Part shown: piece after piece, positions 11,267 to 56,098 of the stretch
Layout of the letters: every line of letters starts with the position of its first letter
Position numbering within the stretch: the stretch's first letter is position 1
Source of the DNA: Cornus controversa
Taxonomy: Eukaryota > Streptophyta > Magnoliopsida > Cornales > Cornaceae
Direction: 5' to 3'
DNA: 64,000 bases
Assembly (NCBI GenBank): GCA_026545225.1
Contig: CM048848.1
Coordinates: forward strand, 12,194,853-12,258,852
Notes under the pieces: model-generated
Told to the model about the DNA's origin: nothing
What the model saw: only the letters and a program-made list of their open reading frames with translations
The model's database searches: none
Made by a program: the position numbers and the translations under genes

Positions 11267-11734
11267 TTTTTAATGCAACTTTGTAATTTTTTTTTCAATT
11301 CAAAACTATTAACAGACAAAGTCGAGAAAAACTGTGTATAGATTCTTTATAATCAATTTCATTTGTTATTTAATTAAGGTCATGTAGTGAAAGAAAATTC
11401 TTGTCCCATATGGGGGGTTGATAAGAAAGGAATAAATGTAGGAGTTAAAATCCTCTTCAATAAGGATTTTCGCAGCCCTTTCAGTGAGAACATTTATAAC
11501 TATTGATAGTAACTCACATTACTAAAATGGATGATATCAATGTTATCCAAAGTCACCCATTTCAGTTACTAGGAATTAGTGTCACATATTATAGTAACGT
11601 GAGTCATCACTAAACGTTGTCATAATGGGCAATCAAGGAATAATATTCAATGAACTTGATACGTACACAACGAATAGTGAAAGGACTATATGAGTGAGAA
11701 ATGAGGATGTGGGGTTTTTGAGTGTGAATGGATT
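11267..11734. other. Intergenic, nothing recognised
   Basis: AT-rich sequence without a supported gene, repeat or element end. Confidence 0.5.
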
Positions 11735-31264: not shown

Positions 31265-34200
31265 AGTAATAAAATTTTTTAAATTCCTTGCTTCCCTAGT
31301 CCTCTGATTTTCATTACTGACTTCCTCTACCACCAAGGTCCTCTCCACTACCATAGCGTAGCTCATCAAACCCAAAATCGCAATCCGATCTCTTATGAAA
31401 GCTCAGAGACCTCTCTCGAACTTTTTTGACTTTAGTTCTTCAGTAGGGATAACTTCAGGTGCAAAATGAGCCAAGGATATGAACTTGGTCTGGTATTCTA
31501 TCATCGTCATGTTGCCTTGTTGAAACTCATATAATTCATACCTTAAACTTTCTTTCACCAACACCGAAAAGTATTTCTTGAAGAAAAGCACTTCGAACAT
31601 ACCCCAATCCATCACCTTGATGCCATGGTAGTTCCCAATAAACTTCCACCAACGGTTGGCCTCACCCGTAAGATAATGGGCGACCACTTTCACTTTCAAA
31701 TCCTCCTCTACCTCTAGAGTGGTAAAGAGCTTAACCATATCGTCCAACCAATTCTCGGCCATCATGGGGTCTGACCCCCAATATATAATGGCGGATTATG
31801 TTTCTTAACATTGTTCAATGCCACCATCATTCTACTAGGAGCGGCTCTAGGTGAAGCCTGAATCTCCTCTTGTGTTTCCTTTGCAATTTGCCACATGGTT
31901 GTGACCATGTCATGCATAAACTGTTCTCCATCAATTGGAACTGCTGTGGCTACCCCTTCGTGAGCTTTACGTGGCGGCATCTTGCTATACATATATAACA
32001 AGAAGGTTTAATATTCAAATATGCATGCTCATACAACTTTCATTATACTTTCACAACGTTATGCCAAGTCATTCCACAATTTGCATGTTATAAAGACGTA
32101 AGCAATTAATCATGTTACACATAAACAATTTACACTTTAAGTCTAAATCCTTATGTTTCCTTCCTTAACCTCAAGTGAAAACATAATCAAGTTTCACTCT
32201 TCATCCCTAGGTATCCCAACCTAGAGCTCTGATACCATGTTATCATGCCTCGAGTTTTCAACTCCAGGAAACCGAGGGTGACTCAGTCACACTCACCACT
32301 CCTAATCTCAAGAATTATCCTAAAACCATACAATCATTGAAGCTAATCATACATACGCAATACATAGGCGTAAACTCATCTTCATTCTCCTCAACAGGCC
32401 CTACAATAGTCTATACACCCATACACGTTCACTCGCATTCTAGAAATTTTAAATTTCCATCCCAGCCCAGTTTCGGTCGGCTGGTACTACTCTCCAGTCG
32501 GCTGAAACCTGGGCTCAACTAACCTGGGGTTCTTAATTCTGTAGGCCGACTGGAGAGTAGTTTCGGTTAGTTGAAAGGATGCTTTCAGCTGGCTGAAACT
32601 CTCTTTCAGCTATCTGAAATAGGTACCCCATTTGCAAATGTTCTGGATCTCACTTTCGGTTGGTTGCTGTAGAGACTAGACGATCGAAAGTGCCCTAAAG
32701 GCTCAAAACCTATGTAATCCCAATCGAAATGTATTCCATAACTTCACTGACTCATACATAAGCTAAAATATGATTAAAACTTGATGAAACTCATATAACC
32801 CTCATTTATTGTCACCACAATCCATACATCTCCCAAATGCAATTCAAAATCACATATTCATACCCATTCTTCTCAAGCAATCTCAATGATGTCCAACCAC
32901 ACTTAAAACATTTAGAATCATTGATACAAAGTCATAATATAATTAGAGGTCATAATCTTTATAATTTCATACATCACAATTTCACACAATTGGTCCCAAA
33001 TGAGCATTTCATTAATGAGGCCTCCCAAGTTCATAGTCACTATATGAATTACATGCATATTGTCCAAAAATATAAATAATTCAATTATGACTACAACTAT
33101 AGTGAATCAACATGCCACAAGTTGGCATTGATAGCCACATACAAAAATATCCAAAATGTCGAAAAAGAACTCCACTTGGATGTTAACGTTCCATTAGCTA
33201 TTGGTACCTTATCTATAAAAATTTTGGGGGGAGATGGGTGGACAAATCAACGGCTCAGTAGAAATGTCCCAACCCACCTATGTATCGACTCGACACCGAC
33301 CTACATGATATGCAACCATGATGTCTCTCTACTACATGACATATATCAATGTTCTCATGTTCAATAACTCATAAATGCGATTTGACAAAATGTATTTAAA
33401 TATACCACATGCTTAGTAGTTAATTCACATAAGCATTCAAGATATTTACATCTTTGGTCATAATCTGATACATAGACATGATTGATCCACTTCGACGATC
33501 ATGTGGTGCTGGACCACTCTGATGACACCAAAGTGTTGCTCAACTCTATCGACACTCGTGTGATGGGCCAACTCCGACGGTCACACAATCATGGCATTAT
33601 ATAAGCCTTGCACTAGTGATTGGGCAACTTCGACGATCACTATACTTGGGGCATGATTGGGCATCTCCAACAATCATCCCATTGAGAGTATTCTCACCAA
33701 TTCAACTACATGGTTGGCCACCTCCGAACCCCATGTTCCTCATACTTGGACAACACTCCGATATACATGTGTACATACTCATAGAACATATACATTTCAC
33801 ATAGCATATTATCATGCTCTTCAATGCACATTCTTTCTATTGATGATTCTAGTATGCATTTCATCTACACAACCACCATATAGTCACATATATGCCACGA
33901 TTTAAGCACATTAATCATACATGTATACGTTTCACCATATATCGAATATGCTATTACTTCACATACATTACATGTATAAACACATAATTCATCACATATT
34001 ATGAATTAAACAACTCTAGCATGCATAAATATACAATGTGAAGAGAGGAAGGAAAATAAACTCAACTCCCACTACTCACCCATTTATGTTAGCACAAGTT
34101 ATACAACACCAACTCCTCCTATACCCTATAATCAACAACTAAGAGGAAAGAAACACCCCTACCTCAAGTTTGGAGCCCTTCCTAGCAAGCCCTAGAATCC

Positions 34201-34979
34201 ACCAAACTTCAAGTTCTTCGAGGTGCAATTTTTTTTTGTAAAACTGTAGATCGGGATAAGGAGAATACTCTTTCTTTCTTGGACGAAGCCCAAATCCAAG
34301 CCTCACTCAACCCTAACTTTCAGAACTCTGTAAATGGTAACTTTGAAGCCACCAAGGTGAAGAGGAAAGAGAGGGGAGAAACTTTCTCTCTTCTCTTGGA
34401 GCAAGCTCCAAATCTTACTCTAAGGTGATGAAAACCAAGGAAGAAGGTTGGAGAAGAAGGAGAGCTTGGAGAGTCTTCAATGGCCAAATCTATATCTTTT
34501 TAAATCTATCCCAGCAATATACACTAAGTGTATATACACCTCACTAAGGGCAAAATGACTATTTTTCCCTTAAGTCACTTAACGTACCTCAAGTGTATAT
34601 ACACCTCACCAAGGGCAAAATGACTATTTTCCCCTTAAGTCACTTAACGTACCTCCCGAGCTTCGATTTCAATTTTGAAAGCTCCTACGGCCTCAAAATT
34701 GTTTCCTTAACTCATTAAACATTTCATTTAGTCCAAATTAAAAAATAATTATTTTTTAAAAAATTTTTGAATTCTCGGACCCAACTAGACCGCATCCCGA
34801 GGTCTCATTGATCCAAAAAGTCAAAATTCTCTAAATATTTCAAAAACTTTCTTAAGCCTCTAAACAACCACTCTAACATGTTTTCCACACTTAAGACAAG
34901 TTAAACATCATTAAAAATACATTTATGGCAATTATGATGAAAAAATGCAAATCGGCCAAAATTGGTCCTGGTCTCTACA
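31265..34979 (-). mobile_element. Tekay-like Gypsy element fragment, broken
   Basis: Fossil on the minus strand made of the 5' LTR (34979 to 32238), a primer site TGGTATCAGAGCTC at about 32224-32237 (initiator-Met type) and gag (32001 to about 31265: DMVTTMWQIAKETQEEIQAS, AHYLTGEANRWWKFIGNYHG, MTMIEYQTKFISLAHFAPEV). Protease, RT, integrase and the 3' LTR are not seen here. The lineage call rests on the LTR ends and the gag style. It is broken. Confidence 0.75.
32238..34979 (-). repeat. LTR A (Tekay-like), 2.74 kb
   Basis: Starts TGTAGAGACCAGGACC and ends ATGATAACA on the minus strand. Notable contents: a 67-bp duplication at 34517-34650 of the box AAATGACTATTTTYCCCTTA, CACTTAACGTACCTC; degenerate tandem units at 33480-33770; and a block of dyad words at 32455-32700, about 220-460 bp from the LTR end. 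Confidence 0.8.
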
Positions 34980-35007
34980 TAAAATGATTAGTGTTGGTAA
35001 ACCTGTA
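34980..35007. other. 28-bp spacer between two head-to-head LTRs
   Basis: TAAAATGATTAGTG.. separates the starts of LTR A (minus) and LTR B (plus). Confidence 0.75.
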
Positions 35008-37570
35008 TGTAGAGACCGCGACCAAATTTGACTGCTTTTCAAAATTCTCATCATTTTCACTATAAATGCATTTCGAATGATGTTTTGGATGTTTTGAGAG
35101 TGGGAAACATGTTATGAGGTTTTTGAAACATTTGAAAAAGTTTGACTTTTTGGTTAAAAGGAGCTTCGGGATGAGATTTAATGAGTCTGGAAAAATTTTA
35201 GAAAATTTTATTTTTGATTATGAACAAAAAGAAATGTTTAGAGTGTTAAGGAAGTGATTTCGAGACTATTGGAGTTTTCAAAATTAAAAACGAAGGTAGG
35301 GAGGGTACGTTAAGTGGCCTGGGGGCAAATCGGTCACTTCGCGCCCCGAGGAGTGAGATAAATATCCCAAGATCTAAGATATTTCACTTTTACAGATTTG
35401 TTTCTCTCTTTAGCTCATCCACTTCATCTCTCTCCATTCTCTCTAAATTTTGGAGCACTTATGGTGTGATTTGGAGCTTCCCGAAGAAGGGGAGTACGTA
35501 GGGGACATCAAGGTCATTGGTTTGAACCGATCAAAGTATCCATTTCATGAAGTTAAAAAGGATGGAATTTTTAAAGTTGGCTTCCAAACTTGAGATTTGA
35601 GGTAGGGGTGTCTTCTCCTCCCTTTTCATCGATTCTCTAGGATCTTTTGTGATATATGGTAGTGTTAGTATAATTTAGGAAGATAGAAGGTCTTTTCTTG
35701 ATTCCTTTGATATTTAAATATGCTAATAACGTTCTTTGTATGATTTATGTGGTGTAGGAAAAGCATGTTAGTCCTATGCATGTTAAAAATTGAGTTTTGT
35801 TATATATATGAGATGTATGATGTAGGTGACTTGTATGAATGTTATACATGAAATATTGTGTGCTTAACATGGTAGTTATAACTTAATGGTGTTTTTCACA
35901 TGTTATTACCATTGGATAAGAATCATGAGGTTCATTAGGCTTACCTTGAATAATGACTTGAATTATGTGAACTTGAATACCATATGTTGAAAATACATCA
36001 AATGAGTGATTTTTTAGGTCAATGCAATTGATGATTATTGTGGGTCAAAATGCATGCAATGTGATGCATATGTTGTGATTGCCTAACATAGGTTGCTCTT
36101 GGTGGATAGTGGGATGATTGTCGAAAATAGAATGGGTATTAAGGAATTTGGACTATAAGAATGGATGCACACGAAAGGTGTGATGAGCTAATGTTTTCAA
36201 TTGGTGGAAAATGGACTCCTCTCCTTCAATTAGAAATTTTCAATTGATGAGGAATCGAAGTGACAATCTTATGATTGACGAGTGTCAACATGTGATAAAC
36301 ATGGTGGTTGTGGAAATATGGAACTATGAGGTTCAAAGGTTCTGTCGTGATACTCTAGAAATTGCAAGGTTAAGTGGTCGAATTAGTGGATTCATGTAGA
36401 GGATTGGTTGTGAACTTAAGCCATGGGTTATATGATTTGTGATTTTGCGTGGTTACACGTATACTTGCTATTTGTTATATTGTTACCTTGTTGATGACAT
36501 GAGTATTGACTATGCCATGTAGTATAGGGATGACATGAGGCATATCATGTAGCTCGGCGTCGAGTCGATGCTTAGGTGAGTTTGGTCATCTCAACTGAGC
36601 TACCGTTGTGCTCACCGCTTTCCCCCAAATATCTTTTAGGTTATACGTCAAGGATAGATTGAAAGGACTCAATAGTCATTTGTGGGTGTTTGGAGTGCAT
36701 TGGACACTTAGACGAATTTTATGGTTTGAGTATAAACCATATATGTATCGTGTTGTGGACTATGTTTGGTTATCCATGCTGACTTGCATGGTGATTTATG
36801 TTGTAATTATGTTTAAATTATATTGCTATGTTCTAGCTTCACATGTAATGACTGTATATGAATCATATGTGACCCTTTTGATTATGAAAGGATGAATGTT
36901 GGTTTTAAGTCCAATATGTACAATATTCTTATATATGGATGCTTAGAGATGTGAATTTACATTTAGATTATGATCATGAGTATGATTTAATACATGTGAA
37001 TGATGCATGATCCTTTTCTGTATGATTTTAGAGTTGTATAAACTGGTTATGATGATAGGAAGGACTTAAAATGCCAAGAATGGCCAAGTGTTGAGCTACA
37101 TGATTTTCTGTAGGTGTATCAATCTGGGCACTTCAATGCATCGAAATGCCCACTTCGATGCATTGATCTATCGATGTATCAAAATGGCAGGAATGATGCA
37201 TCGAAAAACCTGCAGGATTTTGAGAAACCAAAAGTTTCGAGAGTTTTTCTTGGACGATACTTGTGCGATGCATTGTAAGATCAATGTATCAAAATCATCA
37301 TTTCAATGCATCGAACCTACGATGCATCGAAACCTATATGTTGATGGATTGAAATGCATGCCAGGCTGAAATGTTAAAATGCCTTGGAACGGACATGGGG
37401 CGTTATGTATTGACCCCAATGAGACGTGTTGAGTTTGTAACGTACGGTTGGATGTACGTGCACACGATTTAAACTCCGCATTGAGATTGATGATGAGATT
37501 AGTGAGGAAATTGATTAAGTGACAACACAGTCACCCTTGGTTTTTGAGGAACGAAAATCTAGGCGTGACA
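35008..37570 (+). repeat. LTR B (Tekay-like), 2.56 kb
   Basis: Starts TGTAGAGACCGCGACC and ends CTAGGCGTGACA. Shares with LTRs A, C and D2 (62008) the box TTGAGGTAGGGGTGTC and, near 35300-35390, the GGGTACGTTAAGTGGCC box. A dyad-word block lies at 37125-37345, about 225-445 bp from the LTR end. Confidence 0.8.
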
Positions 37571-39150
37571 ACATGATATTGGAGCTTAACTGGGTTTGAA
37601 TACCTAGGGACGACAGGAAAAGGCTGAACTACGTTTTGATGTTTGAAAGGATTTAAGGATCTGAACATTAGGTTCAAAAACCTAAAGATGAAGGGTGAAG
37701 TCCAATCACATGTTAGATTGGGATTGTGTATTGACCTATAGCTCATTTAATTATTGTCGACGAAGGGTGAGAATTTGATGTGTATTTATTTGAGGTTAAA
37801 AACTTTGACTTGAGATTTGTATTGGATATACTTATGTAGTGTCATATGGAATATGATTTGATGCTTACATGTTTAGAATAAACATACTGTTTTGGATGAA
37901 ATGGCTTGAGATTTAAGTGTCTTCGTGTTGTTAGAGGGGCAGATACAGTCCCTATGAATGGAGGACAAGTTATACGTGATATGGTTGCAACCATATGGCA
38001 GATTGCTAGGAAAACACAAAAGGAGACTCAGGCTTGACCTAGAGTAGCTCCTCGTAGGATCGATGATGTTGACATTGGGGCATGTCAGGAAGTATAATCC
38101 GCCAATGTACGCCAGAGGGTCTGACCCTATGGTGGCTGAGAATTAGCTTGATGAGATGGTCAAACTCCTTATCGCACTTGAGGTAGAGGAGAACTTGAAG
38201 GTGAAAATGGGCACCCATTATCATAAGGGTAAGGCCAAGCGTTGGTGAAAGTCTATTAGGAACTGCCATGACATTGAGGTGATGGATTAGAATACGTTTG
38301 AAGGATTATTCATAGAGAAGTATTTCCCAATAATAGTGAAGGATAACTTGAGGCAAGAGTTCTATGATTTGCTTCAAGGGATATGACAGTTATAGAATAT
38401 GAGATCAAGTTTACATCATTGGCTCGTTTTGCACTAGAGGTGATTCCTACTGAGGAATTTAAGGTGAAGAAGTTCGTGAGAGGTCTCCGGACCTCCATAA
38501 GGGATATCATTACAATTTCGGGGCTAACAAGCTATGCTGTCATGGTAGAAAGATCACTAATAACAGAAGAGCTTGGTAATGACAATCAGAGGGTACAAGA
38601 TGAGGAAATGCGTGTTTTTCCTAAGAGTCAGCCAAAAAAGAAATAGAAAAGGGGCCCTTATTGATCTGTAGGATCAGTGGGATAGTAGATGACACATTCA
38701 GTGCCTACGACTTCCAACTCAGTATGGTCGATTGGGTCAAGGAGAGTGTGTCATCATTGTCAGCAACTGGGTCACTATAGGTCTGAATGTCCCAGCATAC
38801 ATTTGGCACCAGTAGATGAGCAGGTTTGTTACCACTATTATCAGACTGGTCATATAAAAGTGGATTGTCCTCAAGGACAGGGTGTATAGGGTAGGACAAA
38901 GTCTTTTAACTACACCAATCAGTTTTTGGTGAGTCAGATTAACTCGGTGGTAATGCCGCCACCCCTGCCAGTGCAGTCTGCTTTGCGAGCAAGTATGAGG
39001 AACCTTTCGAGTGGTTCAGGATAGTAGTTTAGGTATCAGAGGATTGGTCCACAGTGATTGAGGTATATCAATGATTTCTTGTTATGAGCTATAACGATAA
39101 GTTATACAAGTATATTAAGTTGCATATCATGAGTTTGTGTTATGTGAGTT
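35008..39150 (+). mobile_element. Tekay-like Gypsy element, LTR and gag part, broken
   Basis: Fossil on the plus strand: LTR 35008-37570, a diverged primer-site region beginning at 37571, and gag about 37955-38890. Gag shows the same layout as the element at 31265-34979 (VIRDMVATIWQIARKTQKET, later IKFTSLARFALEVIPTEEF) and two zinc-knuckle-like motifs, CHHCQQLGHYRSECP and CYHYYQTGHIKVDCP. It is interrupted by the insertion at 39156-45379 and probably continues in diverged form to about 46070. It is broken, with many disruptions. Confidence 0.7.
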
Positions 39151-39155
39151 ATGTT

Positions 39156-39811
39156 TGTACACATAAATTTCGTGTCCAAAAATCTAAGAACGAAAATTAG
39201 TGACAAATAAACAATTTTTATTGATTCAAGAAAAAGGGTACAATCCTCTGTGAATCTTTACGAAATAAAGATAATTCCTCTGATTCGATCTCCTTAGTGA
39301 TTTGGCTTCAAGGGCTGCTAGAGCTTGATCTTGATTTGGATTGAAATTTTGGTGAAGAACGGCACGTGGATGATGTGCTTGTTGTTCTTCTACTTCAGGG
39401 TTTAGATACTTTGGAGCTTTGGATCTTGAGTGAAGAGTTCCGCAGAGCTTCAGCTTTTTCTGAGAGTCTTCTGGTCCCTTTTCTCCCACCTCTGGACCTT
39501 TATTTATAGGCTCACCGGAGGGGTAGATTTGTAACTTTCTTTTCCTTTAATAATTATCCTATAATTATCTTTTATGATAATTTTGATAATTATCCAATAT
39601 ATATATATATATATATATAATTATCCATTAGACCCATTTTCAAGTGGGCTTTGATTTCTTAGACAATTTAGACCAACCCATAACTCATTTATTTGTGGTG
39701 GGTCTGGGTTTCAAATTATCTGACTTATTGGGCCACATTTCAAAGTGGGCTAAAATGAAAATAAACCCAAATTGTATTTTGGGTTCATCATGTAATTTTT
39801 TAATGTCTACA
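39156..39811 (-). repeat. 3' LTR of the 39156-45379 element
   Basis: 656 bp, TGTAGACATTAAAA to ATTTATGTGTACA on the minus strand. TATA box TATAAATAA at 39500-39508 (reverse strand), and a TA run near 39597-39619 that is longer than in the other LTR. Confidence 0.9.
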
Positions 39812-39959
39812 AATTGCCCCCACTTTAAGTTTCGCGTCATGTTGAGTTTGTCACGTATTTAAAGCGGGACTTGAAGTATTTATATTTCGCTTTTTTTGTT
39901 GTGCGAAAATTCAACTGCAAAAAGGATGTCTTCTTTGTCAAGTTGAATCAAAGACGTGA

Positions 39960-40125
39960 GGTTCCTATTGCCAATAGAATTTTTTTTTTCTGGTCCAAGT
40001 GGAATTGAAGACTTGAGAATCCTATTGCAAATAGAATTTTTTTTTCCTTATCCAATTTCAAATAGAATTTGCTGTTTTTCATATTCAAACGAAATTGGAG
40101 TCTTGAAAATCCTATGTCAAATAGG
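39960..40125 (-). repeat. Tandem units of about 60 bp, counterpart of 20455-20740
   Basis: Units of AATTGAAGACTTGAGAATCC, TATTGCAAATAGAATTTTTT, the reverse complement of the units in the older relative. Confidence 0.75.
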
Positions 40126-40230
40126 ATTAACTCACCACTATATATATGTGACTTATGCTTGAGACTCTTCACATCAGAGATAATTGAAGGAAATCTTCTG
40201 AACTCTTGAACTCTTGTAACGGTACGCTCT

Positions 40231-41000
40231 TCTCTTCTTCTTTTTTTTTTTTTTTTTCCTGTTTTATCCTTTTTTTTTTGTTGCTGCCTTCTGTTATATA
40301 TTCTGTCTTTTTTTTTCCTTGCACGGCTGTTTCCTTTTTTTTTTCTCCTCTTCCAGCGCCTGTATTTTTTTCCCTTTTTTTTTTCTCTTTTTTTTCTTCT
40401 TTCCTTTCTTCTTCTCTTCCAGGCTGCTGCTTCTTTTTTTTTCTTCTTCTTTCTTTCTTTCTTCTTCTCTTCCAGGCACACGTCTTTTTTTCTTTTTTTT
40501 TTCTCTTTTTCTTCTTCTTTCTTTCTTTTTTTTTTTTTTCAGGCACGTTTGTTTTTCTTTTTTTTTTTTTCCTTCCACGCCACTTTTTTTTTTCTTCTTC
40601 TTTCTTTTCTTCTCTTCTTTCTTTCTTTTTTTTTCTTTTTCCTTTTTTTTTCTTCTTCTCTTCATGTACATGTTTTTTTCTTTTTTTTTTTCTTCTTCTT
40701 CTTCTTCTTTCTTTTCTTCTCTTCTTCAGCTGCCACCTCATCCCTTTTTTTTCTTCTTTCTTTTCTTTCTCCAACTGCCACCTCCTCTTTTTTTTTTCCT
40801 TTTTCTTTTTTTTTTCTTCTTTCTTTTCTTCTTCTCTTCTTTCTTCTTCTCCTACTGCCGCTATAATTTCTTTTTTTTTTTTCTTTTTTTTCCCTCCTTT
40901 TTTCTCCAGGCGTTGGAATTTTTTTTTTCTTTTCTTTTTTTTTTCTTCTTCTCTTCTATGCACCAGTGTTTTTTCCTTCTCTTCTTTTTTCCTTTGACGT
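40231..41000. repeat. Very long polypyrimidine (reverse: polypurine) tract
   Basis: About 770 bp of almost pure T/C on the plus strand, in irregular units of TTCTTCTTTCTTTC, TTCTTCTCTTCCAGGC and T-runs of 8-17. On the element's own sense strand it is A/G-rich. It gives long open frames of Phe/Ser or Lys/Arg that have no protein meaning. Confidence 0.95.
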
Positions 41001-41403
41001 GAAAAAAAAAAATAAAGTTTCTTTTTTGTTGCTTAGAAGATTTGAACACAAGATCTCATGAGAAGACATTATAGCACCACACCATTTCTACTACACAATT
41101 TTTTTCTATTATAAACCCTTAGAATATAATATAACAAACACCTGAACTTTGAAAAACACATTTTTTTTAACAACTTTGCCTTCCATGATCACTATTAACC
41201 AACTCTTTTTTTTTAGACCAATTTTTGCTTGTGGGCTCCACTCAAATTTTGTATTGTCTCTGGAACATCGTACAGATCCATTGAACTTACTGAAGAAGAC
41301 AACTTTATGTCAGTTATTCAACTCTTCTCTTGTAAGTTTCAAATTTTTTTTTCAATTCTTGCAGGTCAAATTGTCTTTCTCAGAATATGGAGTTCCAGAT
41401 GCC

Positions 41404-41892
41404 ATTCATTAGTCCCTTCGGGGTCCCTTAGTGCACTTCAGTGTCACTTTTATTGTACTTCGGGGTCCATTAGTGCACTTTGGTGTCACTTTTTCGTCCC
41501 TTCGGGGTCCCTTAGTGCACTTCGGTGTCACTTTTATTGTCCCTTCGGGGTCCCTTGGGGCACTTCGGTGTCACTTTTTTGTCCCTTCGGGGTCCCTTGG
41601 TGCACTTCGGTGTCACTTTTTCGTCCCTTCGGGGTCCCTTGGTGCATTTTGGTATCACTTTTATTGTCCCTTCGGGGTCCCTTGGGGCACTTCGGTGTCA
41701 CTTTTTCGTCCCTTTGGGGTCCCTTGGTGCACTTCGGTGTCACTTTTATTGTCCCTTCGGGGTCCCTTGGTGCACTTCGGTGTCACTTTTTCGTCCCTTC
41801 GGGGTCCCTTGGTGCACTTCGATGTCATTTTTATTGTCCCTTCGGGGTCCCTTGGTGCACTTCGGTGTCACTTTTTTGTCCCTTTGGGATCA
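41404..41892. repeat. 43-bp minisatellite, about 11 units
   Basis: Unit: GTCCCTTCGGGGTCCCTTGG, TGCACTTCGGTGTCACTTTT, with T-run length varying from unit to unit. It is absent from the older relative at 12389-21908. Confidence 0.95.
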
Positions 41893-42001
41893 GGCCAAGT
41901 CACCACGATGCAGTAGACATCCGTCAATATCTCGGCGGCAAGTCAGGTCACCCAACTCTTCTCTTGCAAGCTTCAATTTTTTTTTTACTCATATCCAAGA
42001 G

Positions 42002-42250
42002 TGATTATTTTTTTTCATGCAGACAGTTTATACTCATGTCATGAGTGTTTTTTTTTTGGTAGACAGTTTATACTCGTGTTAAGGAGTGTCATCTTTTTTT
42101 TTTTTTGGTAGACAGTTTATACTCGTGTCAAGGAATGTCATCTTTGTTTTTTGGTAGACAGTTTATACTTGTGTCAAGGAATGTTTATTTATTTTATTTT
42201 TTTTGTAGACAATTTATACTCGTGTCATAGAGTATCATCGACAGTTTAGG
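42002..42250 (-). repeat. Tandem units of about 45 bp, counterpart of 20003-20160
   Basis: Five units of GACAGTTTATACTCGTGTCA plus a T-run on the plus strand, the reverse complement of the unit in the older relative. Confidence 0.85.
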
Positions 42251-42279
42251 CTCGTATTGGGGAGCACTTTTAGCTTTAA

Positions 42280-44734
42280 TTAATTTTTAGCTTTGCAAGA
42301 CTCAGGAGACAGTCCAAGCTTGTGTTGAAAGGTGTGAATCAGCTCGGCGTCAGTTTGAAGATTTTCTTCTTGTTTTATTTCTTCATTATACTCTTCTCGT
42401 ACTTGAGAAGAAACATCATCTTCGAACTTGTCTCCCCACCCAAAAGGAAGAGGTATTTCATTCGTCGTGGTCCATGCAGGAGGATTGAACCTCACCCAAT
42501 ATGTTTTTATTCCGTTATGAGATTCGATCTAGACAGCATCTTCGGGCTCTGGTCCCCACACTTTTCCTTTTTCTAGTCTTTTAATTTTTTGACCCTTTCG
42601 TTCCATCTGGGATTGTAAACAATTTTGTTCTTGTTCCTCACTTTCTTCTTTGAGACCTTCGTTTCATTGATTGTTAGAGGCAGTTCGAGAAAGTGACTCT
42701 TGAGACATCACTCGTGTGTTTCTGGGCAATGATTCTTGCGAGATCTTTTTATAATCATTCCCTCCTTGAGCATTCTTCTTTGGCCTCCAAGCAAGCACAG
42801 TATTTTGAACTCTCCTACTTGAAGTTGTTTGAGTGAAATTTGATTGATTATTCCGATACCGCATCTTCAACACAAATCCTCGAGATTCGTCATTTTGGTT
42901 ATGCTTTTGTTTTTCTTGTTTCCTTCTTGGCACTTCATTCTTATTTTCGGATTTGATAAAATGTGTAGGCCTTTTTAAAAGACAGTCGTGAATCTTGCCC
43001 CCATGCCAAGGATATTTCATGTGAGAGGGCTGGGAATGAGTCTTGTATGGAAGGTTTGCCCCCTGTCCGTTCAGTCATCTATCAAGGTTTTTTTGACTTA
43101 ATGTTTTATTTAATCAAGAACTATCAGATGAAGTCACGGAAGGAACACGATGTGTTTTTTGATACAGGTCGTTAGAGACGATACTTGTAACATAAGATGT
43201 ATTTATTTCATTGTCCGAGTTAGGAAGTATTTTGTCTTCCTCTTCATCTTCAGACTCAACCTCTTCATCTTTAAGACAGTTATTAGACAAATTAGGAGAG
43301 GCAAAAGCCTTTGCACCACGACTTGTTATGCTGAGTTCCATATCATAGGCACGAGTAACCAATTCTTCAAATGTACGAGGCTTGATTCCTTGTAGAATGT
43401 AAAGAAGCTCCCAGTGCATGCCTTGCATACACATTTCGACTGCTGATACTTCAGAAAGACAGTCTTTGCAATCAAGACTTAGAGCTCGCCAACGGCTGAT
43501 ATAGTCGACCACAAGCTCGTCCTTAATTTGTTTCGTGCTAGTGAGTTCTAGCATGCTTATTATTCTACGAGTACTGTAGAAGCGGTTAAGAAACTCTCGC
43601 TCCATCTGCTCCCAACAGTCAATACTTCTAGCTTTGAGGTCCGTGTACCAATCAAATGCATTCTCTTTGAGGGAACGAACAAATTGCTTGACCAAGAGAT
43701 CCTCTTCGGTGCCAGCGTTATTGCAGGTCTCCACAAAGTGTGCAATATGTTGTTTGGGATTGCCTCTTCCATCAAATTGTTAGAACTTTGGCGGTTGATA
43801 TCCCACTGGCGTCTTTAAGGTGTGAATTCTTTCGGTGTAGGGTTTTGAGTACACAAGAGTGCTTTGAGGGGCGCCGCCATACTGTGCTCGGATTGTGTTC
43901 GTTATTATATCTTGCAACTATTGGAGAGATAACAAAGCGACTGGGGAAGTAGGGTTAGTTTCATCAGCCATGTGTCTTGACGCAGATGTGTGATGACGCT
44001 CTTTTGATTGGGCACCTTGAAGAGAGGAATTTGAAGTATTCGCAGGCAAATGTGTTGACTTGTCAGGATTTTGGATTTCAAGCTTCCTCATTAGCGCGGC
44101 GATCTACAAGTCCTTCTCTTCAACAGTCTTTGTGAGGTTTTCAATTGCGCGCCATGACTACCAGTTGGTCTTCCACCGAGGTTGTTCCAGTCTTCATAAC
44201 TGCGACAACATTCGAATAGGAAAGACCTTGAGGGCTAACATTCTTTGAAGGGACCGATTGTTCTGAAATCTCAAGTAATAACTCTGAGAGTGAACCAACA
44301 CTAGAGTTGGTGTCAGAGACGGAGTGGGGTGAATGTGGTGGAGCCGACTTTTCTAAAACTACGCCAGAGTTCTTTGCCCCCTGAGGACCAATGGTGTTAA
44401 CATGTTTAGTTTTCACATCCATTGATTTAGCAGGATTGGTTTTCACCAAATCTTGCTGATTCTTGAGCGAAGCAATTGCTTTGGTCTTACTACGCGTCAT
44501 ACGACTTGCTGAGGTGCTGCTGGCACTTGACAGGTTCCTAGTGTTCTTGTCACTGCTTGCGGCAACTTTGGTGTTAGCCATTGCAACAGCAGTTTCTTTT
44601 GAGTTTTTCTTGTTTGTCGTCTGAACCTTGGTAGCACCCATAGATTCTGATGAACAGAGTTTTGGAGGGATGATGTAGGAGACAGAGATGAGAGGTAGAG
44701 ATGGTCCCATCGGGTGTGCCAGAAATTTGTACAC
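42280..44734 (-). pseudogene. Gag region of the gag-only LTR element (second copy), broken
   Basis: Fossil gag on the minus strand in the order: Ser/Thr-rich N-terminal part (44734-44141), gag core (43734-43114; IKDELVVDYISRWRALSLDC, MQGMHWELLYILQGIKPRTF), basic part (43020-42664) and C-terminal part (42495-42280). It is close to the plus-strand copy at 17602-19992 and better preserved. No zinc knuckle or protease is visible. Broken. Confidence 0.8.
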
Positions 44735-45379
44735 ACAAATTTCATGTCCAAAAATCTAGGAACGAAAATTAGTGACAAATAAACAATTTTTATTGATTCA
44801 AGAAAAAGGGTACAATCCTCTGTGAATCTTTACGAAATAAAGATAATTCCTCTGCTTCGATCTCCTTAGTGATTTGGTTTCAAGGGCTGCTAGAGCTTGA
44901 GCTTGATTTGGATTGAAACTTTGGTGAAGAATGGCACGTGGATGATGTGCTTGTTGTTCTTCTACTTTAGGGTTTAGATGCTTTGGAGCTTTGGATCTTG
45001 AGTGAAGAGTTCTGCAGAGCTTCAGCTTTTTCTGAGAGTCTTCTGGTCCCCCTTCTCCCACCTCTGGACCTTTATTTATAGGCTCAATGGAGGGGTAGAT
45101 TTGTAACTTTCTTTTCCTTTAATAATAATCCTATAATTATCTTTTATGATAATTTTGATAATTATCCAATATATATATATATATATAATTATCCATTAGA
45201 CCCATTTTCAAGTGGGCTTTGACTTCTTAGACAATTTAGACCAACCCATAACTCATTTATTTGTGGTGGGTCTGGGTTTCAAATTATCTGACTCATTGGG
45301 CCACATTTCAAAGTGGGCTAAACGAAAAATAAACCTAAATTGTATTTTGGGTTCATCATGTAATTTTTTAATGTCTACA
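44728..45379 (-). repeat. 5' LTR of the 39156-45379 element
   Basis: 652 bp. TATA box TATAAATAA at 45072-45080 on the reverse strand. An 87-codon frame downstream of the box is open in both LTRs, but nearly every base change between the copies alters a residue, so I do not call it a gene. Confidence 0.9.
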
Positions 45380-45384
45380 ATGTT

Positions 45385-46070
45385 ATGAGATTAATAAAAC
45401 ATGATGAGTTATATATGTTTGAAAATCATGCTTTTGGTTTAATCATAGTCGTTGTAACATGTCTTGTCTCTAGAATGTTTTAATGTACATTACATGTTTG
45501 ATTTTAGTATCCTCGTTTTGAGGATCTAATGAGTCAAACAGAGGTTTGAAATAAGTTGATTCATGAGACTTGAGATGAGTCAAACTGAGGTTTGAAATAA
45601 GTTGATTCACGAGACTTGAGATGAGTCAAACTGAGGTTTGAAATAAGTTGATTCACGAGGCTTGAGATGTGTGAGTTATACTAGGCTTAGGTTGTCTGAG
45701 CCTAGAGCTAGTGGGGAAGAGTTAAGATATCTTGATGTTTTTCATACAGAGATTTTTGAGAATGGATTAGAGTTGAGTATATTAGTCCTTGTACATGTTA
45801 GGGACTTAATATATGTAGTCCATTAGCTTTATGCCAGAATGGACAGTTGGTATCGAGAGTAAGAGGGACAGGAAGGCATGTAGTGGGGGTTGGACTATCG
45901 AAAAGAAACGGTTTGGCCAGTCATTTCTCTTCGATTAGTGTTTCTCTTACAATGAGTCAGGTCTAAGTACTTGTGAGATTAGTTCGATGAGTATTGGCAG
46001 ATAAGGGAATGAAATTTGAATGTTGTGAGTATAGCGAGTTTTACATAGGCTTGTTAGAAAGCTTAAAGGA
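45385..46070 (+). other. Probable diverged continuation of the Tekay-like element, with a 46-bp minisatellite
   Basis: Flanking sequence resumes after the target duplication. Three tandem units of 46 bp (ATGAGTCAAACTGAGGTTTG, AAATAAGTTGATTCACGAGA) lie at 45529-45672. Coding identity of the rest is not readable. Confidence 0.45.
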
Positions 46071-46379
46071 CTTAGGCATTGCATAGCCAATTGTACTTAT
46101 ATGTTTGTAAATATTTTGCAGTTAATGGCATGCTTCTGTGTTCTGCCTTAAAAAGTTTTTCTTTTGAAGATAGATGTTCTATTTATTCTCCAGCTACGAA
46201 AATAAACCATGCATTAATTGGATGTTCACATTTCAAAGAGAATTTTAGGGTTTGCACTTGTATGTGTATCAGATTGACCATTATGCGGGGACTATCACCT
46301 AATTCTGTTTTTAATGGTTTATTTCTTTTGATGTCCATATAGCTCCATAATACTTGTTACATTTGCCATTTTTGAACAT

Positions 46380-46629
46380 GAATTGGGGTATCACTCTTTT
46401 CTAGTTGATAACTGAGCAGACCACCATTTTTGCATATTTTTGTAAGTTTAACAAGTGTGTTAAATCCAATGAGACTTCACTCGTCCAATAGACGTGTCTA
46501 GGGGTTTAAAAGGTTTGTTGCATTTGTTAAATGCAATAACGTTTTTCACAAAAGCGAAAGTAGAGTACTTATTTTATTTTATTTCTTTTTGTATTGCTAA
46601 GGGACTAGCAATATCTAAGTTTAGGGGTG
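46380..46629 (+). other. 3' end of an Athila/Tat-type element ahead of its LTR
   Basis: TTTGTTGCATTTGTTAAATG, TGTATTGCTAAGGGACTAGC and the polypurine region AAGTTTAGGGGTG match the 3' end at 61430-61577. So the LTR at 46630 is preceded by a 3' untranslated region and followed, beyond the SIRE piece, by Athila coding sequence. Confidence 0.65.
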
Positions 46630-47997
46630 TGATAAGCATTGAATGTTATACATTCTCGCACCTTTACTTATGTATTTTAATTCCTTAGATGCACATATTG
46701 TATAGTTTTCACGTGCTTTTATATTTTTGATGATTTTAGGTTCAAAGTCAATTTTTGGTGTAATTTGATTCCATTAGCAATTCAAGAATGCATTCCTCAA
46801 TCTGAGTGTACTTCATGGAAGATCTTTAGCTAGGATTGGTGAGTTGCGTATCAAGACCAGAGTCGGGAAGCTGAAGAGTGAAGGAGAGTAGAAGCAGGCA
46901 CTTCGATCCATCAAAGTCACAGCTTTGATCCATCGAAGCTTTGATGCATCAAAGTCCCTACTTCGATATATCGCCCAATCTTGCAGAAGATATTTTTTTG
47001 CAAGATATTTTCTTCACTTGCCACTTGTCCAATTTTGCTTAGATGAAACCTTGAACGAAATTTCTGTGATATTTTGAGCCTAAAGTCAAATATATAGATA
47101 AGAATTATGTAATAGTTAGATATATCACTTTTCTTGTAAGAAATAACATATATGGAAATTTTAGATAGAGAAAGTAAAGTTCTAGAGAGGGAAAGCTCCA
47201 ATGAAGGCTTTGGAAAGCCTTGAAGACCATTTTGAGCATGGATTTACCTCTGTCTATGGAGTGCATCTAGTCCACCATAATCAACTAATCCTTCTCTAGG
47301 GTTTTGACAAACCCTAGCCATGTAATAGTGTTTTAATTATGGTGAATTGTAGTTTTTATACAATCTTTGTGTATATGTCTCTTGCCTTGAGCCTTATTTC
47401 AATAAAAGTTTAGAAATTCCTTATGCTCATGTGTTGTGATTTATCCACTTGTCTTAGAATGCTTAAATTTTTCACATGATCTTCAAACACTTGTAAGTTC
47501 CACGAGGACTACAAGTGATGGCTTGAGACTAGTTTTCATTTTCACATGCATAGCTAGATTTGTATAGTCCATGCTAAGAGATGGTAAATTAGCTACACTT
47601 CGTTAATTAGGTAAGTAGTTAGGTAGAAAATTTACATGTATCAAAGATGGACTATAGTATTTTAAGGAGCACATATCCTCTTGACGGTTGCATTGTAAGC
47701 CACAAGCTAAATGCATCGATTATTACACATTTGCATTAATCCCCCAATTTATTATAAGTTTGACATGTTACGAGGCTAGTGGCGAAGTCTCAACCCTAGT
47801 TCTTTATCTTTTTCTCAACTTTGTATTTTAATTACAATTTCTGAATTTTAAAGTAGAGTAGACAAACAACTCAAACTTGTTTGTGAATTAAACAAGAACC
47901 GACCTTCGAATTTTAGTATATTATTCCGACGACTCTCTGTGGGATCGACACCTTCAACTTAGAACCCTATCCTTCAAGGATTCGTTCTAGTGCGTGT
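46630..47997 (+). repeat. Athila/Tat-type LTR with dyad-word block
   Basis: Starts TGATAAGCATTGAATGTTAT; the right part (GGGATCGACACCTTCAACTT, CTATCCTTCAAGGATTCG) matches the solo LTR end at 59305-59360. The exact right end is blurred by the Copia piece that follows. Dyad words CTTCGATCCATCAAAG, CTTTGATCCATCGAAG and CTTTGATGCATCAAAG lie at 46901-46973. Confidence 0.7.
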
Positions 47998-50220
47998 TTA
48001 TCTTCATCATCACTAACATATTTACCATTTTCCTCCTTGACCTCTTGAATTGAAGTCTTTAGACCTATGCTCTTCTTTTGTTCAGGTTTTTCTTGACGAT
48101 TTTTCATCTAGATTTCATGAGTCATAAGTGATCCCATGAGGTCTTCAAGACTCAATGTATCGAAAGAATTGAAGGTTGGCACCAAAGAATTTTTTCCACA
48201 TTGTCGGGAGTTGAGTAATTCCTACCAAGATGAGATAAACTATTAATAATGTTAGTGAATTGAGTAAACATCTCACTCTCACCAATGGTTTCATTGGGTT
48301 CCATCTTAAATAGCTCATACTCACGAATTAACATGCTCACTTTGGTGGCTCTAACTTGCTTAGTGCCTTCATAGATCATTTCTAATTTATCCCAAATATT
48401 TTTTGTGGACTTACAAGCCAAAATTCTATTGAATTCGGATTTGCTCAAAGCACAATAGAAGTTTGTAATGGCTGTAACATTGATTTGAACAAGTTTTCGG
48501 TCATTATCATTATATTCATGCAAATCTTTTGGAACTCTTAGACCTTCTATGATTTTTATAGAAACTAAGGGTCCGTCACATCACTTTCTAAATTTGGTAA
48601 TCAATAGATTAAAGAAACTATATCATTCTAGGTTTCCAATAGCTATAGTCGAGTTCGTCAAACTAAGGTGGCCTATTGTTAGATTGGCCTTCTACATGAG
48701 ATGGTCCTTGCATGTTTGCCATATTCAAACTCTAAGACGATTAAGTCCTATTCAAGAGTCCAAACTCTAATACCAATTGTTACCCAAGAGTTGACCCTAG
48801 AAGGGGGGTGAATAGGGTCAATGGCAAACTATGACAATTTCTCTACTAATTTAAAGTGTAATAAGTAAATAAAGATAAAGTAATTATAGAAGAAAGATAA
48901 TGGAATTAATGCACAATAAATAAAAGCAAGAGATAGAGAAGATGTAACGTGATTCAGAATCCCCTATTCCACGACTCAAGATCCCTCTTGAGAATTTCTA
49001 AATCCACTAAGGCTTCTCCTTTTGGATAGAGAGCAAACCTTTATAATAGAGCTCACAAGCTCCTTCTTTCTCTTGCTTAGTGAAGTGTTCCACCTAGTCT
49101 TTTAGGGTTCAACCAACCATTTACAATAAATGAGAGGAAGATTTGTTGCACCATAAATGGTATCTCTCAAAGGCAAATGCTCAAATTTAAGATCACAACT
49201 ATAACAATAAATGAATATCAAGTTTAAAGCTCAAATCTTAGTTGAAAGAGGATGAGATGAATAAATGATGATCAATTTTTGTACACTTGGTAGCTCTACA
49301 TCATAAATACAGACCAAGACTCATATATAAAGTTTCTTTCAAAAATATGGTTGTTGGAGGTGGTTGAATACATTAAATGTACCAAACTAGCCGTTTAGAT
49401 CTGAATCGCATAAAAGCAGTTGACTTATGCATAAAACAATCGACTTATAAGTTGACTATTCATTTAGGAACGTCGTCTGTTTCATCTTTTCAAAGTAAAA
49501 ATTAAGATTCTTCACAATATAAGTCAACTGATGAAATTGGGTACGTCGACTATTTTGTCACTCTAGAAATGTCAAAAATGATCTGTTGTAATAAGTTGAC
49601 TTACAAGAATAGATAAGTCAACTGATAAGAAGACTTATCTAAAAATATAAGTAGACTTATTTATGGAATAAGTCAATTATTTTGACACTCTAGAAAAGTC
49701 AAAAAGTTCTGTTGAAATAAGTCGACTATGGGAATGGATCTGATTTATGCTCAGCATAAAAAATACAGAACTTTGAAATCCAAATGAGCCTAAACCATCA
49801 AGGACATTTAAGATGTGATTCAATATGATCAAATCTTGTTTCTAAGAGGCTAAGGACCAATATGACATATAAGAATGATATGCATATGGTTTGTAGAATC
49901 TTGTTTTAAGAGAATGAGCTTCAAGCAAGATATTTAAATATAACTTTACAAGATTACCTAAGCTTGCACCATTTCTTAACTACCTCAATTCTTCTTTGTT
50001 TGACATGATTCTTCAAGCTTGATGTGCCAACTTCTTTTCAATGGAATGGATTATTTCGATCATGTCATCTTCAATATTTTATCCTCATTGTGAATGCTAT
50101 CTTGAGTAGATCATTGTTTTAAGCAATCACTCAATGTAAATGTTAGTACCTAACATCATTAATGGTTTGTTATCATCAAAATTACAAGATTGCCCTTAGG
50201 TTAAAACTTTTGGGTCAACA
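47998..50220 (-). mobile_element. SIRE-type Copia fragment (LTR plus gag), broken
   Basis: Fossil on the minus strand. The LTR runs 50220 to 48778, starting TGTTGACCCAAAAGTTTTAA and containing TTTTGATGATAACAAACC, known from SIRE/Maximus LTRs, and ending GGGTCAACTCTTGGGTAACA. The primer site TGGTATTAGAGTTTGG follows at about 48759-48774, then gag of the UBN2 type (48523-48152: FYCALSKSEFNRILACKSTK, IWDKLEMIYEGT). The rest of the element is absent. Broken. Confidence 0.8.
48778..50220 (-). repeat. SIRE-type LTR with dyad words
   Basis: 1.44 kb. Words of the AATAAGTCGACTTATT type, many with one or two changes, fill 49380-49740 in two longer units that share CACTCTAGAAA and CTGTTG. Confidence 0.75.
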
Positions 50221-53200: not shown

Positions 53201-54130
53201 AGAGACTGGGTTCCATGTCGAGCCAAAATGTGATGCCAATGAGCCCAATATTGGTTGTAGAGATATTCGATGTTTGGGGAATTGATTTCATGGGCCCTTT
53301 TCCACCTTTTGGTTGTGAGTATATTCTCACGGAGGTTGATTATGTTTCTAAATGGGTGGAGGCGGCAGCGACTAGAACCAATGATCACAAGGTCATTGTC
53401 AAATTTATGTATGAGAATGTTTTCAGTCAATTCGGTATTTTGAGAGCATTGATCAGTGATGGTGGTTCTCACTTTTGCAACAAATTCTTGAGGGGATTGC
53501 TTGCCAAGTGTTTTATGACCCACAAGCTTGCGGCCCCTTATCAGCCTCAGATGAGTGGGCAAGTAGAGTTTTCTAACCAGGAAATCAAGCACATCCTAGA
53601 GAAGACAGTCAGGTCGGATTAAAGAGATTGGTCTTTTCGTTTGAGTGAAGCACTGTGGGCGTATCGTACTACTTACAAGACTCCTATCGGTTGGTGGTTG
53701 GGAAAGCATGTCATCTTCCAGTACAAATAGAGCATAAGGCGCTTTGGGTGATTCAGAAGCTTAACTTTGATATGAAGGCGGTCGGGGAAGAAAGAAAGTT
53801 GTAACAAAATGAGTTGGAAGAGTTTTGATATGATGCATATGAGAGTTCATGCATTTATAAGGAGAGGATGAAAGCATTCAATGACAAGCACCTTTTGCGT
53901 AAGTCATTGTCTCTGGGTAAAAAGGTGTGGCTTTTCAATTCTAATCCTTGGTTGTTTCCCGAAAAGTTGCTTTCAAGATGGGATGGTCCATTCAAGTTAT
54001 TTTAGTTTTTCCCCATGGAGCCGTGGAGATTTAGAGCTTGAGGGATAATACTTTGATGAAGGTTAATGGACAAATTCTCAAACATTGTGTTGAGGGGATA
54101 GTGCCCAAAGAGAGATGTGGAATCTGTTGA
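50221..54130 (+). pseudogene. Athila/Tat-type Gypsy gag C-terminus and pol, broken
   Basis: Fossil polyprotein region in Gypsy order. Gag tail 50221-50470. Protease 50477-51010 (LDLGVSVNLLPYSVYLQLGL). Reverse transcriptase about 51400-52260 (SKWVSPTQVVPKKS, HVSIDYRKLNSKTRKDHFPL, HFGLCNAPMTF, VFIDDFLVFGSSFEDC). RNase H 52315-52785 ([39 protein letters not shown]). Integrase about 52980-53700 (zinc region HSLACRGHFSARKMAAKV, core [37 protein letters not shown]). It is the only pol-bearing Gypsy region in the window. Broken, with several disruptions. Confidence 0.85.
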
Positions 54131-54809
54131 CTTGACGGATCCCATCTATCATGATTGATCCTCTCAGTTGGTGAACGTCGCCTACGAACGTTAATTGTGG
54201 GATATTTTGTATATTAGTTATTTGATTTCTTTTTATTTCTTTCTTGCATTCTTCTTTTTATGTTTTTCTTTACTTTTAGTTGAAGATTATGTGCTTTTTA
54301 ATGTATTTTTTTTAGTGTTCAAAGTATATTTGCTTCCGCTGGAGGTTAAGAGATGGACAGGGGGTATTTAGCTCCAAAACAGGCAAAAAAAGGTCCCCTC
54401 AGTCGACCTTAGGTGATAGGCCCTCTAAAAATAAGCCTCTCGGTTGACCTTGGGCGAGGAACAGCCCAGGTCGTACCAGTTTAGGCGATTGATCGCTTAT
54501 TAGAGGGGCGATCGGTTGCCCCTACCCATCAGATATTTTTTTTGCATTACCAGGTTGGGTGATCGATTGCCCAGCCTTGGGTCGATCAATCGTCCGGGCT
54601 TATGAGGGCCCAACTGATCTATTTTTGATGTATTTAAAGAGCTTTTGGTGACCTATATGGTCCCACTCAAAAATACCTCACTTGGTGCCTACTTTTGCCT
54701 CTCCTATATCAAAGTACTCTAAAATATTTTACTTTTATTGGCATATTGCTACTTGATCATCATCAATCATCACTATCATCATCAATTCCAACTTGTGCTT
54801 CTCCATTAT
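54131..54809 (+). other. Post-pol non-coding region of the Athila-type element with dyad words
   Basis: Pyrimidine-rich after pol, then a block at 54395-54600 with words such as TAGGCGATTGATCGCTTAT, GGGCGATCGGTTGCCCC and GGGTGATCGATTGCCCA. No coding signal. Confidence 0.6.
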
Positions 54810-56065
54810 TGTTACACCCTAAAATTTGGACCGCCGGGACTCCCTCGGACCGACCCGAATCCCGAGTGTGAACCCGTTCACTCAACCCCGTGAACGACCT
54901 TAACCATACTCATGTGATAGTATCAAACTTTGATACCATGCTGTCATACCCCAGAATTCATTACCCAAAAACCCGAGGTGACATCCGTTCACTTACCCGT
55001 AATTACCGCGGAAGCTCAATCACATTCATACGCCTATATATGCATAAATATACGTATGTATATACACACAACGCAAAATCAACCAATCCCAGTGGGCCTC
55101 CAGCATACACCCTTCAATGATTACCTCACACAGGATACATAACTCCTTGTACGTCCATCATCATGGGCTAAAAATGAAACCATTGGAAAGAGGGTTTCAA
55201 AATACTTTATTTCAAAAAACGAATCACTTAATTCGGATTTGAAACGACCAAGTTATGCCTATTTCAAATTTTAAAAATCTGCATCAGTCGACTTATCAAT
55301 GAATCACTTGACTTATTGAATGAATTAGTCGACTTTTTTGCTACTCTAGAAAGCTCTAAAACACACTGTCCAAATTAGTCGACTTATAGAAAGGAATAAG
55401 TCGACTTATTCAACCTGGAAATCCTATTTTACACCCTTTTTGTCCAAAATTCACTCTAAAACTCATATCTAATCACTTCTACAATACAAAACTAATCCAA
55501 CCACATTCAAATCATCATTTAAAAGGCATTTCAACCTAATAAAAATAAAGCTTCATTTGATCATGTCCATAAACATATACAATGGGATTCAACCCAACAT
55601 TCTTCCGTTCAAAATCCACAAATCACATATGATCTATATATGAACATTACATTTGAAACTAAAGTGCACCAACATGAATCAAATGTAAATACAAAGCTTT
55701 CAATCTAGTCCACATGCCACAAGTTAGCTTGGACATCTATCTACATGTCAAAAATCCAAAAGAACTTTAAAAGGTCCATTATGCTAATCATGCTTCGTCC
55801 TCCATCGGCGCCTTATCTGAAAAGTTTATATAAATAGGGGGTGAGCACCACTGCGGCTCAGTAGAAATGATCCACCCATCTCCACTCCAATCTGTCAGCC
55901 TTGCATGAATGCACATAAAATCACTACATGTCTACATGACGAGTATGCATGCCCTTTTTACCCACAAATAATCGCGTTTTTTAAATCATGAGTGATGCTC
56001 CACATCTCAATGCATACATATATATATATATATACATATATATATACATATATATATATATATAC

Positions 56066-56098
<33 letters not shown>

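Follow-up and report, generated by a model that had tools for sequence, protein, structure and literature searches.

Blocks of short palindromic words, most often repeated at a step of 22 bp, occupy the long terminal repeats (LTRs) of both Gypsy and Copia retrotransposons in a 64 kb stretch of the Cornus controversa genome (contig CM048848.1, positions 12,194,853 to 12,258,852; GC 34%). This stretch, hereafter the window, was studied within a genome of 772 Mb. The words are palindromic and regularly spaced, are constant within the families B, C and F, and are replaced among relatives, and the array of the Gypsy LTR C is homologous to that of the Copia LTR F. We propose, at about even confidence, that the blocks are modular cis-regulatory arrays for a dimeric DNA-binding factor, and that they have been exchanged between elements.

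Palindromic blocks in the LTRs of the window

An earlier note on this DNA had described blocks of palindromic words in three related LTRs, and all three blocks were located where it had put them. Block A (32455-32700, minus strand; TTTCAGCTGGCTGAAA type words) lies 217-462 bp from the end of LTR A (32238-34979, minus strand). Block B (37125-37345, plus strand; TTTCGATGCATCGAAA words with centres 22 or 16 bp apart) lies 228-448 bp from the end of LTR B (35008-37573, plus strand), and block C (55280-55430, minus strand) consists of AATAAGTCGACTTATT words and a TTTCTAGAGT spacer, common to block F. LTR C (54810-57239, minus strand) is a solo LTR with the target duplication ATTAT, which puts its block approximately 470-620 bp from the LTR end.

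The note had assigned such blocks to a single LTR family, a restriction that did not hold, as blocks D to H showed. LTRs D (46636-48015, plus strand) and E (58022-59350, plus strand) align with each other and have approximate limits, those of D read by eye. Block D (46897-46980, plus strand) has CTTTGATGCATCAAAG / CTTCGATCCATC words at spacings of 22, 16 and 22 bp, and block E (58204-58306, plus strand) has ATTTCGATTGATCGAAAT words and forms the strongest peak. Block F (49400-49735, minus strand; ATAAGTCGACTTAT words, with a spacer in common with C) belongs to the LTR of a Copia element (48785-50219, minus strand, limits approximate). Block H (54440-54600, plus strand) has GGGCGATCGATCGCCC type words and may lie in an LTR; a piece of integrase (rve, E 2.9e-10) lies at 53203-53619, approximately 0.8 kb upstream. 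Counted per LTR or stretch rather than per whole element, F has 11 words, B nine, and A, C, D, E and H four to six each. B, D and E have in common TTYGAT..ATCRAA words and the left edge GGCAYTTYRATNNATC, which is found without mismatch in the window at these three sites only; since the pattern was derived from the same three places, this is a description and not a test.

The eighth block was anticipated from the position of its LTR. LTR G (62008-64000, plus strand) continues past the edge of the window, and its block, if the slot were real, was therefore expected beyond that edge. It was found at positions 429-530 of the neighbouring stretch L040 (window-equivalent 64329-64430), 237-338 bp before the LTR end (approximately L040:767). 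Its word, TTTGAGGCACCTCAAA, is new, and its spacings are 22, 22 and 44 bp. No shuffle out of 500 reached the inverted 8-mer count of block G, while the remaining 3' part was at shuffle level (305 of 500).

These palindrome blocks are real, and chance is an unlikely source of them. We counted 8-mers whose reverse complement is also present in the same block (inverted 8-mer pairs) and compared each count with 1000 dinucleotide shuffles. Block A had 33 pairs (shuffle mean 2.1, maximum 14), block B 71 (mean 4.3, maximum 26), block C 42 (mean 1.4, maximum 15) and block E 145 (maximum 32); none of the 1000 shuffles reached the count for A, B or C, and the same was true of D, E and F. Block H was weaker, its inverted 8-mer count being reached by 8 of 500 shuffles and its palindrome-family score by 0 of 200. 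When repeated palindromic 14-mers were sought de novo, the words of the earlier note emerged, and 0 of 200 shuffles did as well for each of A-H. Of three control stretches in LTRs A, B and C, one had a count that 185 of 1000 shuffles reached, one a count that all 1000 reached, and one, adjoining C and itself slightly high, a count that 34 reached.

Ranked by inverted 8-mers, the top four non-overlapping 220 bp segments of the 64 kb (step 20) were E, B, C and A, with F sixth and D 13th. When palindromic 14-mers were simply counted, several AT-rich places ranked above the blocks. A looser measure, based on 12-mers that match at 10 of 12 positions, put A seventh, F eighth and H 18th; A and F were outranked there by segments at 11681 and 21201, neither of which is a known LTR block. 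A wider scan covered 146,400 bp (the window and neighbouring stretches) and yielded 1172 segments with a scorable palindrome family; every one of the ten best non-overlapping segments was an LTR block, namely B, C, D, E, F, G or one of the new p1-p4. A and H scored 7, tied with four segments not known as blocks. AT-rich arrays near 23.8 kb, where there is no known LTR block, scored 7, and a repeat pair at 39154/44726 had an AT-rich palindrome only, with a score of 6 (95th percentile). Block GC ranged from 0.29 to 0.48, and in six of six LTRs the block had a higher observed/expected CpG ratio than the remainder of the LTR, though by a small margin in A.

Words are specific to families

The earlier note had read the words as specific to individual copies. 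To sample family B, we used a query from the 3' end of LTR B (37350-37650) that is block-free save for an overlap of approximately 5 bases with the last word, and took 30 loci, one of them the window, from the best 40 of 1066 first-look candidates. GATGCATC words were present in the slot of 28 of the 29 other copies (the exception was L030), the best word being TTCGATGCATCGAA in 26 copies and TTTGATGCATCAAA in two. For family F, a block-free query gave 20 loci (window included) from the best 40 of 891 first-look candidates, and all 19 other loci had AGTCGACT words. For family C, again with a block-free query, the best 40 of 3489 candidates were scored; the 20 slots obtained comprise 19 of the 20 best and one weaker match, and 18 of them had AGTCGACT words. 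One of the two non-conforming slots (L078/L090) is broken by an insertion, and the other is the weaker match (L088/L089), which has other words. The element inserted at L090 has inverted-repeat ends, TAATACCCCACTCC / GGAGTGGGGTATTA. Three more slots came from weaker C matches, L093 with the C word and L091 and L092 with AGCGCTCGAGCGCT type words.

The palindromic words are family-specific, not copy-specific. The mean distance between B words was 3.04 within a copy and 3.05 between copies; words in the same slot of different copies were more alike (2.27), so the words are inherited and not homogenised copy by copy. The sharp peak of dyad words at the slot that the note had anticipated was found, with 86 dyad 14-mers in 240 slot bases of the 29 B-family copies against 65 in the other 1560 bases. 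Copies of this family hold from one to nine words. The 155 B-family words contained 284 substitutions, 123 of which were C>T or G>A, a share that would be expected from decay of methylated cytosines.

Replacement of words at the slot

Relatives of LTR G carry different content at the same slot. The left flank of G was 81, 77 and 72% identical to those of L089, L091 and L092, respectively, over 185-188 bp. Local alignment of the G block with the blocks of these three relatives gave scores of 16, 19 and 14, where shuffles had means of approximately 18 and maxima of 27-36. Forced end-to-end alignment still left 60-64% of aligned bases identical, a level that free gaps permit. The blocks of L089 and L091 are partly similar to each other (score 58, shuffle maximum 30); their words differ, at nearly equal offsets of 38 and 39. 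The words of G were significant by inverted 8-mers (0 of 400 shuffles), and those of L089 and L091 were significant by palindrome family. Taken as anatomy, these comparisons support a slot that is kept while its content is replaced between relatives, and the several word classes that the note had looked for among relatives were found, in LTRs with alignable flanks, those of L092 being doubtful.

In L089, the sequence left of the block resembles G (83% over 397 aligned bp) and the sequence right of it resembles C (76% over 481 bp), with the final 80 bp also 84% G-like. The block thus sits at the junction of the two, which suggests recombination at the block.

A constant distance between slot and LTR end, as earlier claimed, is rejected. 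A position 220-480 bp from the LTR end describes A and B well and does not describe C, and across all blocks the distance ranged from approximately 100 bp (p1-p4) to 620 bp (C).

Array homology between Gypsy C and Copia F

When the F LTR was compared with the window by BLAST, the only matches outside it were to the C block (97 bp, 72%, E 3e-7, and 82 bp, E 4e-6), and the matched region takes in the spacer between words. Against the 20 F blocks (window's included), the C block had a median score of 102 forward and 59 in reverse; A, B, D, E, G and H scored 20-27 forward. The C spacer scored up to 44 against F-family blocks, where 500 shuffled spacers reached a maximum of 32, and in all 18 word-bearing C copies the F spacer match was better forward (24-44) than in reverse (14-20). 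Judged from these alignments, homology of the C and F arrays, and with it a Gypsy-Copia exchange, is supported as anatomy.

The superfamily assignments have different bases. LTR A has a PBS (primer-binding site)-like site and a Ty3-type gag piece at lower coordinates (Retrotrans_gag, E 1e-12, 31406-31795). The gag piece after LTR B is weak (E 0.0018, under the Pfam cut-off). LTR C is grouped with the Gypsy elements because of its LTR homology to B (489 bp, 74% identity, E 5e-83), and element F has a copia-type gag (Retrotran_gag_2, E 1.1e-17, 48155-48580). The finer labels are tentative: D and E are called putatively Athila-like and F putatively SIRE-like, and the Tekay label comes from the earlier note, the coding pieces examined in A and B being those of gag.

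Spacing and position relative to putative promoters

The words recur about every 20 bp, as the earlier note had stated. Among 38 centre spacings in seven blocks, 22 were 20-23 bp, six were 16, four were 49-51 and three were 69-72. In the B family, 61 of 126 spacings were exactly 22 and 31 exactly 16. In the F family (window's copy included), 67 of 150 were 20-23 bp (45 of them 22) and 19 were 50, with the other peaks at 50, 12 and 72, and in the C family 37 of 72 were 20-22 bp (21 of them 22) and nine were 50. The 22 bp step is therefore the commonest in arrays of unrelated words. Helical phasing was considered and not upheld, given the 16 bp spacings beside the 22 bp ones in the B family.

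TATA-like strings, read in stretches chosen by eye, were found approximately 30-130 bp downstream of the block in D (47091), E (58433 onward), F (49329) and H (54633), and 1.6-1.9 kb upstream of the block in A (34504), B (35358), C (56994) and G (62390). The D, E, F and H arrays look promoter-upstream, U3-like in placement. Use of the TATA-like boxes of A, B, C and G would place these four arrays within transcribed sequence. The R/U5 placement first suggested thus fits A, B, C and G and is not general, since the blocks of the other four immediately precede their boxes. A TTAAAAT-like string, also seen by eye, follows the block in A, B and C, so a second promoter is possible there. Relative to the approximate LTR start, the block is offset by approximately 180-260 bp in D and E and by approximately 480 bp in F.

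Comparison with known systems

The closest known kind appears to be the RM boxes of Sireviruses. According to Bousios et al. (2010, PMC2829016), these are palindromic repeated LTR motifs that differ between elements, occur in at least eight copies per element, start 200-400 bp into the LTR, lie upstream of the TATA box and form a CpG island; a CGG-CCG core is present in 12 of 13 entries (the exception is Tnd-1), and the boxes are absent from the other Ty1/copia elements compared and reported as Sirevirus-specific among Ty1/copia. The blocks described here are likewise multi-copy palindromic LTR words that vary by element, lie upstream of TATA-like boxes in F, D and E, and occur in near-identical form in elements otherwise of little homology. 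They differ from the RM boxes in being present also in Gypsy LTRs, in lying far downstream of the TATA-like box in A, B, C and G, in a spacer as well as words common to a Copia and a Gypsy family, and in the CGG-CCG core, which is missing from the words of B-F. Block F therefore resembles RM boxes in form and place, not in core. A Sirevirus (Ty1/copia) host was not found for A, B or C: A has a Ty3-type gag, B a weak Ty3-type gag, and C is placed by LTR homology.

In maize, as reported by Martin et al. (2023, PMC10760457), small RNAs map in excess to the palindrome clusters of Sireviruses, LTR clusters that resemble the present blocks in their strong predicted hairpins. Maize Ty3 elements have no obvious structure peak there, whereas the Gypsy LTRs described here have one. 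The commonest maize Copia palindrome occurs also in Helitrons, a precedent for palindromes common to different element types. Among the matches listed from the open-licence literature searched, none reported such blocks in Gypsy LTRs or one array shared by Gypsy and Copia elements, and a search with the letters of the words likewise gave no Gypsy example.

Interpretation of the blocks

Of the roles first proposed for the words, binding sites for dimeric proteins fit best, and RNA stem-loops are possible. In the reading that we put forward at about even confidence, the palindromic words of approximately 16 bp, mostly 22 bp centre to centre, would be bound by a dimeric factor that acts on LTR transcription. 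The array would be kept within a family and swapped as a unit between families, at least once between Gypsy and Copia, perhaps through template switching or recombination between elements. A more ambitious form of this proposal, which we hold tentatively and with less conviction, is that a pool of palindrome cassettes with a common spacing spans the superfamilies, so that whole-cassette swaps switch the regulatory or silencing identity of an element and the word set becomes a tag transferable between Gypsy and Copia.

Several observations weigh against regulatory, exchangeable arrays. The A, B, C and G blocks lie 1.6-1.9 kb past a TATA-like box, which is odd for an enhancer. The words of old copies decay independently, paired changes showing no excess. 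Block F holds no surplus of single near-perfect palindromes, since 176 of 1000 shuffles have at least as many, and the signal is in the repeated family only. By inverted 8-mers, the words of L089 and L091 score weakly (reached by 26 and 54 of 400 shuffles; palindrome family 0 of 200), and the words of L092 are doubtful (palindrome family 7 of 200, inverted 8-mers 174 of 400). Finally, the F spacers of the window itself score 33 and 32 with the C spacer, no higher than the best unrelated place in 146 kb (32.5), and it is the F family (up to 44) that stands out.

The blocks could instead act as RNA, either as hairpins cut to small RNAs that mark the element for silencing or in RNA processing, which we consider unlikely. 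Blocks A-H fold more stably than 100 shuffles each (z -4.2 to -9.7), the block is the lowest-z 200 nt segment in five of six LTRs (in C it is second, behind an AT run), and the small-RNA excess reported at maize Sirevirus palindrome clusters (PMC10760457) would agree with such a role. However, palindromic DNA folds in any case, so folding alone does not establish a role in RNA, and the maize Ty3 elements in the same study lack an obvious peak. Compensatory change between the two halves of a word was sought and rejected, the 155 B words showing no excess over independence. That the words let RNAs of the same family recognize each other, for dimerization or co-packaging, seems to us highly improbable: they are self-complementary and family-wide, and in A, B, C and G probably transcribed, but the placement of D, E, F and H is that of U3 sequence, and with words common to Gypsy C and Copia F, recognition of family by word would fail.

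An arms race over silencing, in which a rapidly evolving, sequence-specific factor of the VANC kind would target the arrays and a switch of words would mean escape or retargeting, is in our judgement improbable, less so than RNA self-recognition and more so than a general RNA role. Shared flanks, a repeated short motif and whole-array replacement in relatives agree with it. Hosaka et al. (2017, PMC5735166) describe VANC targets as short-motif tandem arrays in non-coding transposon parts, which arise through the formation of tandem repeats and differ from one related element to another. Unlike the LTRs studied here, VANDAL elements are a DNA transposon family that encodes the binding protein, and the YAGTATTAY-type motif is not palindromic. 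Slightly less probable still are neutral minisatellites, in which palindromic arrays prone to slippage would grow and turn over while serving no function. The range of one to nine words per B-family copy is in keeping with slippage, but arrays of different words have the palindromic form and the 22 bp step in common, and an ordinary tandem array in the window (45529-45672; three near-identical units of 46 bp) has 172 direct and no inverted 8-mer pairs. Palindromes as insertion targets were also considered and set aside, as the preference reported in PMC6911290 is weak and would not put arrays in one LTR slot.

If the proposal of exchangeable regulatory arrays is correct, the control regions of plant retrotransposons would evolve through the swapping of palindromic cassettes between superfamilies. 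Control of unrelated elements by one shared factor would then have an explanation, and Gypsy elements would join the Sireviruses as carriers of a feature that has been described as particular to the latter. Where the flanks of LTRs are 72-81% identical and their slot words differ, these LTRs represent natural swap experiments on word function.

Other features of the window and its surroundings

In the neighbouring stretches, a G-like LTR at window-equivalent 100166-101705 had degenerate dyads only, judged by eye (best score 5), and no block was present within the 700 bp examined at a 96 bp E-like match at 103148. A protein search using a reading frame from E gave no match. IMG/VR scans for relatives gave no matches, and a scan of prokaryotes gave a single match, in a Calditrichaeota record.

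LTRs A and B are arranged head to head (32238-37573), their outer ends approximately 28 bp apart. LTR C contains an internal PBS-like site, TGGTATCAAAG (within 54810-54950), approximately 125 bp before the LTR end, as if an older LTR end and its PBS had been incorporated into the LTR. At 23650-26076, AT-rich tandem arrays lie outside direct repeats of approximately 220 bp (88% identical), with open frames at 24284-25129 between them. A direct repeat pair of approximately 660 bp (39154-45380, 96% identical) encloses a 42 bp tandem array (41412-41888) and long pyrimidine-rich tracts. Beyond the window, in L041-L042 and L045, one block, TTCGATTAATCGAA, recurs at four LTR 3' ends that form two pairs, at window-equivalent positions -30.1 k, -26.4 k, 71.7 k and 75.4 k; the ends are 3.7 kb apart within a pair, and the pairs are approximately 102 kb apart.

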